Part shown: positions 1,297 through 36,449 of the stretch, piece by piece | Position numbering within the stretch: the first letter of the stretch is position 1 | How the letters are laid out: each line of letters starts with the position of its first letter | From: Paenibacillus sp. G2S3 | GTDB lineage: Bacteria; Bacillota; Bacilli; Paenibacillales; Paenibacillaceae | Length of the DNA: 64,000 bases | Assembly: GCF_030123105.1 (NCBI RefSeq) | Contig: NZ_CP126095.1 | Coordinates: 3,162,001 to 3,226,000, forward strand | Reading direction: 5' to 3' | The notes under the pieces: generated by a model | The model's input: the letters and a program-made list of their open reading frames with translations, nothing else | What the model was told of the DNA's origin: nothing | The model's database searches: none | Made by a program: the position numbers and the translations under genes

Positions 1297-1383
1297 ATGA
1301 TTCATGTAGAAACTGTAAAGTTATATACCAGAGGCTGCTCCGAACAAACGGATACAAACGATGAAACGTTGTCCGGAGCTTAA
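1297..1383 (+). CDS. 28-codon leader peptide ORF in front of ABC-F attenuator
   Basis: ATG at 1297, TAA at 1381-1383, preceded by GAAGGGATGG (1281-1290). The peptide begins MIHVETVKLY and ends ETLSGA. The second half of the ORF contains complementary segments GCTCCG (1337-1342) and CGGAGC (1374-1379), so a ribosome stalled in the ORF would change the RNA fold. Short leader ORFs placed before terminators are the known control of several antibiotic-resistance ABC-F and Mef genes; here the role is inferred from position. It is not expected to have a function as a protein. Confidence 0.5.
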   Translation: MIHVETVKLYTRGCSEQTDTNDETLSGA

Positions 1384-30376: not shown

Positions 30377-30643
30377 ATGAAATATGTAAATGCAGATACG
30401 ATTTTTCCAAAAGAATTAATAGAGGAAATTCAGAAATATATTAACGGTGGTATGGTGTATATCCCTAAGCCTGAAGAAGCACATGTAAAATGGGGCGAGA
30501 AGTCAGGGAGCAGAAAATACTTAAGATCTAGAAATATTGAGATTTGTCTAAGGTTTGCCGTTGGAGCAACGGTTGACCAGCTTTCGGATGAATACTGCCT
30601 ATCAAGGGATAGTATTAAGAAGATTGTTTACACAAAAAAATAG
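30377..30643 (+). CDS. CD3324-family small protein with helix-turn-helix-like C-terminus
   Basis: 88 residues. Pattern of the CD3324 family of Firmicutes: MKYVNADTIFPKELIEEIQKY, GGMVYIPKPEE, W near residue 40, then RNIEICLRFAVGATVDQLSDEY and LSRDSIKKIVY, the last being a probable DNA-binding helix-turn-helix. Role unknown, probably regulatory. Preceded by TTAAGGAGCAG. Its terminator has been split by the IS element that follows. Confidence 0.8.
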   Translation: MKYVNADTIFPKELIEEIQKYINGGMVYIPKPEEAHVKWGEKSGSRKYLRSRNIEICLRFAVGATVDQLSDEYCLSRDSIKKIVYTKK

Positions 30644-30763: not shown

Positions 30764-31618
30764 TTATGCAGCACGTCGGTATTCGTTAGGTGACAAGCCA
30801 TCCAAACATTCTACGTAGCGGTAATTATTATAGTAGTAAATATATTGGCTAACCTCTGTGAGGACATCTTCATAGGTATCATACTTTGTAAGATAATAGC
30901 TTTCTGACTTGTATGTACCCCAAAAACGCTCAATAGGTTGGTTGTCCAAACATCGGCTTACACGAGACATGCTTTTCTTAAATCCGTATTTCACATGAAG
31001 TCGGTTGTACTCATGAGAAGTATACTGGAAGCCTCTGTCGCTTTGTAGAAGAGGACTTACGCCAGGGTTCTTCGCGTAAGCCCTCTTCAACGTATCCATC
31101 ACGAGTTTATTGTTGTTGGAGGGGCTTAATACCCATGAGACAATGGAATTATCATATACATCAATAATAGCGCTCAAATAGGCTTTGCGCCCATTCCCGT
31201 ATTTCAGTTCTGTCACATCTGTACACCATTTTGAATTAGGAGAATTGGCATCAAAGTTACGGTTCATTACATTTTCAGCTACATGGATCTCCGTAGCTTT
31301 CACATAACTCGCTCGTTTTCTACGAATGACTGCTTTAAGCCCAAGAGCACACATAATTCGGTAATAACGCTTTTTGTTATACGGCTTTTTGAGCTTTCGG
31401 TTTAATTGCGTGCGCATTTGACGGTAGCCAAGAATCCCTTTTCGCTTGTCATATCGTAGCTTTACTTCTTTCGCTAACGCACGAGTTTCAAGTTCTATGC
31501 AAGAGGGTTTCCATTTTAACCACTTGTAATAGGCAGATCGAGCAACCCCAGCTAACGCACACAACTTCGTAATTGCGTGACCTTTTTCTTTGTTCAGTTC
31601 TTGAATCGCTTGATACAA
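30764..31618 (-). CDS. IS3-family transposase OrfB (DDE catalytic part)
   Basis: 284 residues from the TTG at 31618, but the frame is open further upstream into orfA, as expected for production by -1 frameshift. N-terminal HTH_21-like segment (KLCALAGVARSAYYKWLK), then the integrase core with Asp of WCTDVTELKY, Asp of LLQSDRGFQYTS and Glu of QPIERFWGTYKSE, the DDE triad. C-terminal IS3-type YYYNNYRY. Intact and probably active. Confidence 0.9.
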   Translation of the reverse strand: MYQAIQELNKEKGHAITKLCALAGVARSAYYKWLKWKPSCIELETRALAKEVKLRYDKRKGILGYRQMRTQLNRKLKKPYNKKRYYRIMCALGLKAVIRRKRASYVKATEIHVAENVMNRNFDANSPNSKWCTDVTELKYGNGRKAYLSAIIDVYDNSIVSWVLSPSNNNKLVMDTLKRAYAKNPGVSPLLQSDRGFQYTSHEYNRLHVKYGFKKSMSRVSRCLDNQPIERFWGTYKSESYYLTKYDTYEDVLTEVSQYIYYYNNYRYVECLDGLSPNEYRRAA

Positions 31619-31638
31619 GTTTACTTGTCTAACAAGGG

Positions 31639-32328
31639 TTAGCGTGTATTTCGTCGCTTGATCTCCGCCAACTTTTTTGCGAAGTCATTCTCCATCTCTA
31701 GGTATTCATTTCGCGCTTCTAGCTCTTTAATCCGTAGCTTAAGACGTTCATGGTCCTCTAGTTCTTCTACAGGCTTTTTACGACCTCGATTGTCCTGAAG
31801 AGCTTCCTCACGGCCAGCTTGATATTTCCGAACCCATGCGTAAACTTGCTGATAAGATACACCGTACTTTTCAATCGCTTTCTGATAATCCAATTCATTA
31901 GCGATGGTATATTGTGCAATTTCAATACGTTCTTCGAAAGTTGTTTTACGCCCTTTGTTCATATGAGATAGTCCTTTTCCTTTATGTGTAGGTTTTAATT
32001 CTATCTCATTAGTATACTTGGTAATCCATTTAATCAAAACACTTCTACTTGAAATATGATGCTTGTTTGTCGCCTCTTCAACGGAGAAACGACCAGACAA
32101 CACTTCGTTAACAGCAGCTAGTTTGAATTCCTTAGAGTATGTTTTCCATGTTCTCGATTCCTTTAACCCGTCCAAACCATCTGCTTTATATTTCCTAATC
32201 CATTCTCTAATCGTGTGCGAACTAAGACCTCGCTGTTTTGCCTCATAGTTTGGATTCGACTTGTGCTCAAGGCACAGCCGTACGACATGTAATTTTACTT
32301 CTAAAGATGCTGGACTTCTTTTAGACAT
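31639..32328 (-). CDS. IS3-family transposase OrfA with programmed -1 frameshift signal
   Basis: 229 residues. Two helix-turn-helix units (SSHTIREWIRKYKADG and the TNKHHISSRSVLIKWITKY region, plus a third YGVSYQQVYAWVRKYQAG) and a C-terminal leucine zipper (LKLRIKELEARNEYLEMEND). The start ATG at 32328 follows AAGGGAG; an earlier ATG at 32346 would overlap that site. Close to its end is the slippery heptamer A AAA AAG (31678 down to 31672) in the right phase to move ribosomes into the orfB frame. IS150-like subgroup is likely. Confidence 0.88.
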   Translation of the reverse strand: MSKRSPASLEVKLHVVRLCLEHKSNPNYEAKQRGLSSHTIREWIRKYKADGLDGLKESRTWKTYSKEFKLAAVNEVLSGRFSVEEATNKHHISSRSVLIKWITKYTNEIELKPTHKGKGLSHMNKGRKTTFEERIEIAQYTIANELDYQKAIEKYGVSYQQVYAWVRKYQAGREEALQDNRGRKKPVEELEDHERLKLRIKELEARNEYLEMENDFAKKLAEIKRRNTR

Positions 32329-32469
32329 TAGAAAAACTCCCTTCATTGTAGCAGTAGAAGTTTTTGTTTTTTCTACTGTCTACTATGAAGGGAGCATATC
32401 AGGAAGATCTGACGTGGCTTTTTGTATTATAATTGACAGTATGTTCATTAACTACGAGGTGGAAGATAC

Positions 32470-34417: not shown

Positions 34418-34921
34418 ATGGAAATTAATCTGGTTCCAGTAACATTTGAAAATAAAGAGATATTGTCTAATCTATATCAATTTTATAATTATGATTTCAG
34501 TTTATTTACAGATCAAGACGTGAGCCGGCATGGGGAATTCGAGGTGAATATTGATTATTTTTGGGAAGGCGATCATCGATGGAATCCATATTTGATTGAG
34601 GTTTCAGGAAACTTAGCTGGATTTGTGGTTGTTCTTTTTGAAAACTTAGATACAGACCCAGATCCAACTCATTTGATCTATGACTTTATGATTTTGCAGA
34701 AATACAGAAGAAATGGAATAGGTACTGCTGCCGCAATAAAAACACTTGATCTATTTAAAGAAGCTAAATGGAAATTAGCTCAAATGGAAAATAATAAACC
34801 TGCCATAGCTTTCTGGCGAAAAGTACTTAAGGAGTATACAAAAGATAACTATTCAGAACGATATTTGAGTGATCTCCAAAAATATATTCAAGCATTCGAT
34901 AGAAGGGAGCCGACGAAATGA
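34418..34921 (+). CDS. GNAT-family N-acetyltransferase (first of a tandem pair)
   Basis: 167 residues. Acetyl-CoA binding loop KYRRNGIGTAAA at about residues 106-117 and C-terminal AIAFWRKVLKEYTKDNY. ATG 34418 fits GTGGAGG. Overlaps the next gene by ATGA. The following protein shares overall layout and the FWRK-LKEYT ending, so the pair arose by duplication. Substrate unknown. Confidence 0.85.
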   Translation: MEINLVPVTFENKEILSNLYQFYNYDFSLFTDQDVSRHGEFEVNIDYFWEGDHRWNPYLIEVSGNLAGFVVVLFENLDTDPDPTHLIYDFMILQKYRRNGIGTAAAIKTLDLFKEAKWKLAQMENNKPAIAFWRKVLKEYTKDNYSERYLSDLQKYIQAFDRREPTK

Positions 34922-35451
34922 ACATCACCGTAACATTAACTGACAGCAAAACGAAGTTTATGATTAACAATCTCTATCCACTATACTTACATGATTTATC
35001 AGAGATATGGGGGAACCTTCCTAATCCATACGGGATATACGAGGATAATGAAACGCAGACACTGAATGAACAGAATAAAGTCTTCGACATATGGTGGGAG
35101 AAGCCGGGGATTTTATATCCTTATTTAATAAAAGAGGATGGAATTCCCGCTGGCTTTGCATTAGTTGCGACACCGCCCTATACACCAGCAGGTTGTGAAT
35201 TTTATTTAAATGAATTCTTTATTTTGCGGCCCTTCCGAGGTACGGGAATCGCTGAATTTGCGGCTAATGAGGTGTTTAATCTTCATATTGGAAAATGGGA
35301 GCTACAAACCAATCCCACAGCTACAAATAGGAGAGCCCAGCATTTTTGGAGAAAGACACTAAAAGAATATACTGGTAATAGCTTTCAAGAAGAATGTAAG
35401 AAGTCTTTTGATGATGAATTAAAGATGATTTTTAATTTTTGTAATGGATAA
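34918..35451 (+). CDS. GNAT-family N-acetyltransferase (second of a tandem pair)
   Basis: 177 residues. Acetyl-CoA loop RPFRGTGIAEFAA and AQHFWRKTLKEYTGNSF, matching its upstream neighbour. Translationally coupled by a four-base overlap. Followed at once by a T-box leader that is unrelated to it. Substrate unknown. Confidence 0.85.
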   Translation: MNITVTLTDSKTKFMINNLYPLYLHDLSEIWGNLPNPYGIYEDNETQTLNEQNKVFDIWWEKPGILYPYLIKEDGIPAGFALVATPPYTPAGCEFYLNEFFILRPFRGTGIAEFAANEVFNLHIGKWELQTNPTATNRRAQHFWRKTLKEYTGNSFQEECKKSFDDELKMIFNFCNG

Positions 35452-35469
35452 AGCTAATCAAAACAAATG

Positions 35470-35727
35470 CTTTGATGGAGAAAAGTAGTTCAATACCTCT
35501 TTACAGGGAGGAAACGCCGGAGATTGAGAGCGTTTCTAGAGAAAAGGGTTGATCGAAGTTCACTCCGGAGCAGTCCCTTGAAACCATTGTTGGCAAGTAG
35601 AGGTGTACCGGTTTTAACCGTTAAATATTTAAGTGAGAACATTTCTGTTTGTTGTACAGAATAGTTTTAATTTAGGGTGGTACCGCGGCTCCTCGTCCCT
35701 TTTCGGATGAGGGGTCTTTTTGTTTTC
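35470..35727 (+). promoter_or_regulatory. T-box riboswitch, probably phenylalanine-specific, with no gene behind it
   Basis: Canonical T-box leader. Stem I base GGAG (35477-35480) / CTCC (35563-35566), specifier-loop AGTA (35484-35487) opposite GAAGTTCAC, putative specifier TTC (35559-35561, Phe; GTT one base earlier is the alternative). AG-rich distal stem I elements at 35500-35540. T-box sequence AGGGTGGTACCGCGG at 35674-35688. Terminator stem CCTCGTCC (35691-35698) / GGATGAGG (35705-35712) and T5. After the terminator there are only about 80 bases before the 3' end of sleB, which lies on the opposite strand, so no synthetase or amino-acid gene is controlled. A promoter was not identified with confidence upstream. 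Confidence 0.9.
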
Positions 35728-35757
35728 ATTTAGAAGAAATATTTTTTATTGCAAAAA

Positions 35758-35791
35758 ATAGCGGGTCAACCTTAATGGTTGACCCGCTATT
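35758..35791. terminator. Strong bidirectional terminator after sleB
   Basis: Perfect stem of about 14 bp, with core GCGGGTCAACC (35761-35771) / GGTTGACCCGC (35777-35787). A-run before it and T-rich sequence around it end sleB from the minus strand and any T-box read-through from the plus strand. Confidence 0.85.
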
Positions 35792-35807
35792 ACATTTATT
35801 TGAAGCG

Positions 35808-36449
35808 TTAACTCGCAAATATATGCTTACCAATTTTTAAATTCTGAGGACGAGTCCAAATCCATGCACTAGTAGCTGTATCTGGATTGAAATAATAGAT
35901 TGAATTGTTTGTTGGGTCCCAACCTCGGACAGCATCAAGAGCAGCTAAATAGGCAGTCCGGTTTGGAGTAAGCCAATACTGGCCGTCAGATACGGCTGTA
36001 AATGCGCCTTTTTGAAATACAACGTCTTTTATGTTGTTTGGAAATTGACTAGATTGTATGCGATTCATAACAACAGCACCAACTGCGACTTGACCTTTAT
36101 AAGGCTCACCGCGCGATTCACTGTAGATTACTTTCGCCAAAATATCCATTTCCTCAATATTAAGCGTGTATTTTTTTAAAGCATTCCAAGTTTTTGTACC
36201 AGTAACTCCATCGGCACTTAATCCATAGGTCTTTTGAAATTTAGCAACGGCTGCTTTCGTTTGTGATCCATATACACCATCTAAAGGCTGAGTATAGTAA
36301 TCCAGAGTTTTTAATCGATACTGAAGATCCCACACATCTCCAGAAGAACTCCCTACGGTTAATACAGGAGCAGCACTAGCAGAGCCGATCATAGTAGCCA
36401 TACTTACCAGACCCAAAAGAAGCAACAAAGTGAATATTTTAGTCTTCAT
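35808..36449 (-). CDS. sleB: Spore cortex-lytic enzyme SleB-type cell wall hydrolase
   Basis: 213 residues. Signal peptide (1-26, ending ASA), a peptidoglycan-binding domain (about 32-90, VWDLQYRLKTLDYYTQPLDG then VAKFQKTYGLSADGVTG) and a Hydrolase_2 catalytic domain (about 100-213) with AKVIYSESRGEPYKGQVAV holding the catalytic Glu, and the closing TRPQNLKIGKHIF. SleB is a lytic transglycosylase that opens the spore cortex in germination. Shorter than Bacillus subtilis SleB (about 300) because the linker is short. No ypeB follows, so it may be a second SleB-like copy. Minus-strand RBS AAAGGAGG. Confidence 0.88.
   Translation of the reverse strand: MKTKIFTLLLLLGLVSMATMIGSASAAPVLTVGSSSGDVWDLQYRLKTLDYYTQPLDGVYGSQTKAAVAKFQKTYGLSADGVTGTKTWNALKKYTLNIEEMDILAKVIYSESRGEPYKGQVAVGAVVMNRIQSSQFPNNIKDVVFQKGAFTAVSDGQYWLTPNRTAYLAALDAVRGWDPTNNSIYYFNPDTATSAWIWTRPQNLKIGKHIFAS

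Follow-up and report, generated by a model that had tools for sequence, protein, structure and literature searches.

A gene-less T-box leader in Paenibacillus sp. G2S3 as a probable remnant of a T-box/tRNA-Phe unit, and likely T-box control of tRNA genes in several bacterial lineages

The leader and its neighbours

A complete T-box leader with no gene behind it raises the question of what, if anything, it controls. According to PMC7778990, the T-box antiterminator is stabilised by the uncharged cognate tRNA. The leader analyzed here lies in a 64,000-nucleotide stretch of the Paenibacillus sp. G2S3 genome (the window), and faces the 3' end of a sleB-like gene. The Rfam covariance model RF00230 matches it at 35463-35703 on the plus strand with 108.8 bits (E 4e-23, gathering score 93) over model positions 1-219 of 219, and the original prediction of a complete leader is thereby confirmed. 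It ranks third among the 27 T-box matches in this genome (G000), a single contig of 6,698,229 bases. All 73 base pairs of a consensus structure built from eight T-boxes, including that of the window, are kept.

In the Rfam alignment, stem I spans 35469-35571 (+), and the specifier place falls on UUC at 35559-35561 (+) within GAAGTTCAC (35555-35563). The context reads GAA-G-UUC-A, UUC being a sense codon in the specifier loop of stem I. The T-box L011, which precedes a pheS-like ORF elsewhere in this genome, and its counterparts in relatives share this context and the architecture, with 82% identity over the stem I half, in agreement with the Phe specifier originally proposed as probable. The antiterminator contains the T-box motif GGTGGTACCGCGG at 35676-35688 (+; Rfam alignment), in which UGGU (35678-35681) fits A73-CCA of tRNA-Phe when the letters are compared. 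An intrinsic terminator at 35687-35716 (+), found by terminator scan and folding, overlaps the antiterminator of the Rfam alignment; for the 50 nt around it, folding gives -21 kcal/mol (z -3.4), a value reached by 0 of 200 shuffles.

The left neighbour is a GNAT acetyltransferase gene (34918-35451, +; Pfam PF00583), whose orthologous 3' end also precedes the T-box in the relatives G093, G094, and G103, and the right neighbour is the sleB-like cell wall hydrolase gene (35808-36449, -; PF07486, PF01471). As predicted, no gene separates the leader from the convergent sleB: on the plus strand, 35452-35807 has no start of an ORF of at least 60 aa, ARAGORN finds no tRNA in the window, and by the ORF list and ARAGORN there is no cognate amino-acid-related gene 3' of the T-box. 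The hairpin at 35757-35791, identified by folding, terminator scan, and locus alignment, had been taken from 35758 on for the terminator of the leader. It lies outside the T-box, which has its own terminator at 35687-35716, and in the aligned relatives it stands between an 88-aa ORF and sleB. The 51 nt around this hairpin fold at -27.8 (+) and -26.7 (-) kcal/mol. In the window the scan recognizes it as a terminator on the plus strand (tail ACATTTATTT) and not on the minus strand, in G093 on either strand; most likely it is a shared two-way terminator.

No promoter-like site was found at 35400-35480 in the window at the threshold of the scan, whereas the relatives have one. This counts against function in the window, not against the assignment to the RF00230 family. 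The T-box is structurally intact and probably untranscribed, or at most a part of the 3' UTR of the GNAT mRNA.

Two further RNA elements of this genome may be listed. A uup RNA motif (RF03060, 40.3 bits, gathering score 36.8) is present at 1328-1379 (+) of the window, and at G000:C1:1157938-1158568 two successive T-boxes (L005, L016) stand ahead of one ORF, by eye of the isopropylmalate/homocitrate-synthase type.

The same locus in related genomes

Comparison of synteny had been proposed as one check of the orphan leader, an intact gene behind it in all relatives pointing to a simple deletion. Among 100 genomes of the genus (99 besides the one analyzed), three (G093, G103, and G094) contain a T-box 97-98% identical to that of the window between the same GNAT and sleB neighbours. 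In all three, which are the relatives with a readable leader, it carries a cargo, namely tandem tRNA-Phe(GAA) genes (four in G093, six in G103, and two in G094), the first of which begins 54-55 nt past the RF00230 match. The hairpin and the 88-aa ORF, which has no Pfam match, come after the array. These genomes depart from the original premise, by which T-boxes stand ahead of synthetase, biosynthesis, or transport genes. The G023 contig breaks off where the T-box begins.

In G093, a promoter-like site, TTGACT-17-TACAAT (10 of 12), occupies the expected place directly ahead of the T-box, and the stretch bearing it was recognized by eye in G103, G094, and G023. No further promoter-like site occurs on the plus strand of G093 until 2231, beyond the last tRNA. 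Such sites are not in excess over shuffled sequence (2 vs 2.7 in the window, 3 vs 2.4 in G093), so the assignment of the promoter is based on its position and its presence by eye in the relatives.

The locus alignment reveals two losses in the window. One is the promoter-bearing stretch, 77 bp long in G093, where it is flanked by direct 6-bp repeats; in the window the repeat, ATCAAA, is single and forms a scar at 35457-35462 (+). The other comprises about 720 bp by the length in G093 and stretches from AAATATTT, past the terminator, up to the closing codons of the 88-aa ORF. At the second scar (35737-35761, +; alignment with G093, G094, G103, and G082), AAATATTT at 35737-35744 is fused to the final codons of this ORF at 35745-35761, which end in TAG. 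A tiny reading frame behind the T-box was rejected as a candidate, its end at 35745-35761 being by alignment the tail of the lost 88-aa ORF.

Since the unit is intact at the same locus in the relatives, the element in the window is best read as a deletion remnant. We consider it highly probable that a unit consisting of a promoter, a Phe T-box, tandem tRNA-Phe(GAA) genes, the hairpin, and the 88-aa ORF once stood between GNAT and sleB, and that in the relatives the T-box governs the supply of tRNA-Phe. In the window lineage, one deletion between the direct repeats took the promoter stretch and another the tRNA array with most of the ORF. As both promoter stretch and cargo are gone, the element is most likely dead. 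Gene loss, one of the explanations originally offered, is thus confirmed as a deletion, with the difference that the lost cargo was a tRNA-Phe array and a small ORF instead of the sort of protein gene that had been expected. Taken by itself, the finding in the window is an ordinary deletion remnant, but the T-box/tRNA arrangements to which it led are not ordinary.

Could the leader nevertheless have kept a function, either as a charging-sensitive 3' UTR or terminator of the GNAT mRNA or as the source of a short tRNA-binding RNA? Its undamaged set of consensus pairs would agree with this, as would its 5' edge at 11 nt past the GNAT stop. The 97-98% identity to the relatives indicates, on the other hand, that the deletions are recent, so that an intact fold needs no selection; no promoter-like site stands just before the leader, nothing was found in favour of the stand-alone tRNA-sensing RNA suggested originally, and any read-through would meet the hairpin at 35757-35791 at once. 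We regard such a functional leftover as quite unlikely.

Two other relatives show further states of the locus. G082 keeps a part of the 88-aa ORF and has neither T-box nor tRNA there, and in G007 the GNAT end adjoins the sleB end with no T-box between, for which either gain or loss of the unit may account. About 5 kb upstream of the T-box, the window contains another 88-aa ORF (30377-30643, +), by eye resembling the lost one, beside transposase-like ORFs on the minus strand (30764-32346, labels by eye).

T-box/tRNA-Phe units in Paenibacillaceae

A strict pattern of the T-box motif, 54-84 nt, and a tRNA D-arm was found in 6 of 394 genomes of the family, the one analyzed here being among those searched (G093, G094, G103, G270, G400, and G405), and in three of 100 in the genus alone. 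The reversed pattern, used as a control, gave none in the 394 genomes, and a spacing of 80-110 nt between T-box and tRNA none in 398 genomes of the phylum. Two viral contigs with the pattern were discarded, neither having a T-box at E <= 0.001. By matching coordinates, G270 and G400 appear to be the same genomes as those of loci L111 (G123) and L158 (G125) described below.

Pairs of this kind include a complete T-box of 100 bits with two tRNA-Phe genes in G405, a T-box of 111.9 bits with tRNA-Phe in G270, and one of 109.5 bits with tRNA-Phe in the Paenibacillus genome of L119. In G400, tRNA-Phe is present behind a T-box of 41.4 bits that has no stem I. At a separate locus in G069, a T-box of 107.7 bits is followed by a transposase-like ORF (label by eye) and then by tRNA-Phe, 1.1 kb apart, and G019 contains a damaged relative (71.6 bits) with the 3' arm of the terminator gone and no tRNA in the locus. 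All seven stem-I-bearing T-boxes beside tRNA-Phe have the UUC specifier. In a tree of 27 T-boxes, half of whose internal nodes are open and whose bootstrap support had not quite settled, nine tRNA-Phe-type T-boxes, including that of the window, form one group (support 99/97) apart from 17 pheS-type T-boxes, which are a part of the available pheS-type loci and were labelled by eye. The latter, L011-type T-boxes precede a protein gene.

Judging from the anatomy of the unit, we suggest that uncharged tRNA-Phe binds the leader by the UUC:GAA and UGGU:ACCA contacts and blocks formation of the terminator; RNA polymerase would then transcribe into the tRNA-Phe genes, and the supply of tRNA-Phe would track its charging. 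A shortage of charged tRNA-Phe would thus yield more tRNA-Phe, which alone would be positive feedback. As a Phe T-box also precedes pheS (L011), and argS, trpS, or gat genes stand behind the tRNA in other lineages, the charging capacity could rise too. The T-box/tRNA-Phe units are rare and several are damaged (G000, G019, G400, and G069), so the value of the Phe unit may be low; the repeated damage suggests a weak or intermittent benefit.

One may ask whether the arrays of the relatives merely stand beside the T-box by chance and are transcribed from a promoter of their own, leaving the T-box idle. We hold this to be improbable, as T-boxes were found beside cognate tRNA genes at several loci from several lineages, the true pattern was found in six of 394 genomes and the reversed one in none, and G093 has no plus-strand promoter-like site between that of the T-box and the end of the array.

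The array genes differ from the ordinary tRNA-Phe genes. With the first array copy of G093 as the reference, identity is 90-93% for the ordinary genes and, among the arrays, likewise only 90% for the copy of L111 and 93% for that of L119. At the pair 27-43, most array copies have U27-A43 versus G27-C43 in ordinary tRNA-Phe, with A27-U43 in L119 and U27-G43 in one G094 copy as exceptions; pairing is kept. The encoded CCA is missing from most array copies and present in the G400/G405 type. By these letters, the array tRNAs are a distinct tRNA-Phe isodecoder.

Matches to tRNA-Phe were counted in 12 genomes at E <= 1e-10. Beside their arrays of four, two, and six copies, G093, G094, and G103 have two ordinary genes each, and G069 and G125 have two ordinary genes and one array gene. 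Two ordinary genes and no array were found in G000, G001, and G019, and three in G007. G123 and G124 have one tRNA-Phe each, namely the array one, and none was found in G082. Nine of the 12 genomes, that of the window among them, have two or three ordinary genes and could thus apparently do without the array.

Assemblies tend to collapse tandem tRNA genes that are nearly identical, and the array might on this ground be missing from the window by an assembly error. This is very unlikely, as the genome is one 6.7-Mb contig, the junctions are clean, and single-copy DNA, namely the promoter stretch and the ORF, is lost too. Antisense control of sleB by read-through from the T-box, proposed originally and compatible with the convergent orientation, is hardly credible, since no promoter-like site stands just before the T-box, two hairpins precede sleB (the second at -27.8 kcal/mol), tRNA genes occupy that place in the three leader-bearing relatives, and nothing was found in its favour.

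T-boxes before tRNA genes in other bacteria

When 84,980 species genomes were scanned with the pattern, 83 stretches were found, of which 80 loci were listed. Of the 80, 29 were set aside by eye and the remaining 51 were searched with Rfam; the pattern has many chance hits. In 38 of the 51, Rfam detects a T-box above the gathering score that is followed by a tRNA or a tRNA-like element, and in another eight a T-box below that score (E 2e-17 to 5e-5). Ordinary tRNA genes follow the T-box in 42 of these 46 loci and a tRNA-like element in the other four. L145 has a T-box and no tRNA, and L101, L103, L105, and L113 have no T-box at the gathering score. Among the 80 listed loci, the 42 comprise 33 with tRNA-Asn, five with tRNA-Arg (two of them doubtful), three with tRNA-Phe (L111, L119, and L158), and one with tRNA-Trp.

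The tRNA-Asn loci come from metagenome-assembled genomes (MAGs) whose titles name Bacilli, Erysipelotrichaceae, Mollicutes, Firmicutes, or the like. The 33 loci are mutually related and do not represent independent events, and two of them (L084 and L126) derive from one MAG. AAC occupies the specifier place in all 33, other triplets being listed by the script elsewhere, and the GTT anticodon was read in 30, the tRNA being cut by a contig end in the other three. Behind tRNA-Asn, Gat-like ORFs were recognized by eye in 10 of 11 loci examined; the exception is L123, with tRNA-Glu and another ORF, and in L141 a PGI-like ORF comes first. The tRNA-Asn genes of L152 precede gatC and gatA, both scoring below the NCBIfam cut-off, and then gatB and aspS, which pass it. 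In L108, L092, L128, and others, all from uncultured Bacilli, tRNA-Ile(GAT) and tRNA-Glu(TTC) stand directly before the Asn T-box, which may there lie inside a longer tRNA transcript.

A T-box before tRNA-amidation genes in Clostridium acetobutylicum was reportedly described by Saad et al. in 2012 and 2013. There, as in the loci found here, an Asn-sensing T-box precedes amidation genes. The present loci differ from that of C. acetobutylicum in the tRNA-Asn genes interposed between T-box and gat genes. In 13 of the 14 genomes tested, all detected tRNA-Asn genes are behind a T-box (search, and ARAGORN on doubtful places), where the completeness of the genomes is not given and 'all copies found' does not equal 'all copies'. 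The only tRNA-Asn gene without a T-box is in G128 (contig C9). In G141, one copy is on a second contig that starts inside a T-box terminator region of slightly different letters and runs into a GatC-like ORF; by this start, that tRNA-Asn also is behind a T-box, in a second unit or a strain mix.

Matches to asnS above cut-off were found in five of the 14 genomes (G126, G128, G131, G132, and G142); four of these five have the match on the contig that bears the T-box. The other nine have matches below cut-off only. The latter include AspRS-looking ORFs of 574-599 aa, which in eight of the nine genomes are on a contig with a T-box unit, and one of which (G145, L152) was tested as aspS. G145 and G147 have an additional match of 440-442 aa at 236-240 bits, which may be an AsnRS relative. 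The gene order agrees with a route to Asn-tRNA, the tRNA included, that would be controlled by a T-box.

Synthetase genes follow the tRNA at other loci. In L088, a CGA specifier precedes tRNA-Arg(ACG) and argS, and in L095 (Dojkabacteria) and L154 (WS6) an AGA specifier precedes tRNA-Arg (UCU, GCG, and UCG) and argS. In L151 (WWE3), a T-box of 48.9 bits, whose specifier was not read with confidence, is followed by tRNA-Trp, an ORF without an NCBIfam match, and trpS. The doubtful loci L124 and L132 combine tRNA-Arg(gcg) with weak T-box matches (41.6 and 38.5 bits), in which no specifier was read. In the operon cases, the tRNA might alternatively be a site of processing by which the mRNA is separated from its leader.

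Bacterial tRNA genes are usually regarded as responding to growth rate and to the stringent response, and not to how far any single tRNA is charged. We think it likely that in some bacteria tRNA genes are under the control of a T-box that senses the charging state of the very tRNA they encode, an amino-acid-specific positive feedback on tRNA supply that arose or persisted in several lineages and of which the window holds a recently killed copy. The loci suggest that these lineages include Paenibacillaceae, with tRNA-Phe arrays; small-genome uncultured Bacilli and similar MAGs, with tRNA-Asn in nearly always all copies found and mostly gat behind; and Erysipelotrichaceae and candidate-phyla bacteria, with tRNA-Arg and argS or tRNA-Trp and trpS. 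If this is true, tRNA supply would be under amino-acid-specific control, and the ligand of the riboswitch would be the product of the controlled gene. This raises the question of how stable such a positive loop would be, and whether it is damped by the co-expressed synthetase or amidotransferase (argS, trpS, or gatCAB-aspS).

The survey of Wels et al. (2008) deals with the same RNA family by the same reading of the specifier, and assigns the T-box targets to tRNA ligases (62%), transport (12%), biosynthesis (18%), and other functions (8%) (PMC2494555). T-boxes were judged there by the distance to a start codon, and the words 'tRNA gene' do not occur in its main text (PMC2494555); by such a criterion, stand-alone T-box/tRNA units would tend to be missed. 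In the open-licence literature we found no description of T-boxes before tRNA genes, and an earlier report elsewhere is possible. Target lists based on protein genes can miss a class, and an 'orphan' T-box may flag lost or unannotated tRNA genes.

The argS gene of the WS6 bacterium (L154:4589-7177) has a B3/4 domain (PF03483) on its N-terminal side, which recalls the editing domain of PheT. Finally, the four tRNA-like elements are found behind T-boxes in Ruminococcus MAGs (L107:7242-7339, L083:1995-2125, L130:997-1107, and L136:40-151). They have normal acceptor, D, and T arms and extra hairpins in place of the normal anticodon arm, and score 41.7-53 bits with RF00005. The T-box before them has by eye a GCT specifier (Ala), and alaS follows the element in L083 and, by eye, in L107. 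The element may be an AlaRS mimic or an odd tRNA.
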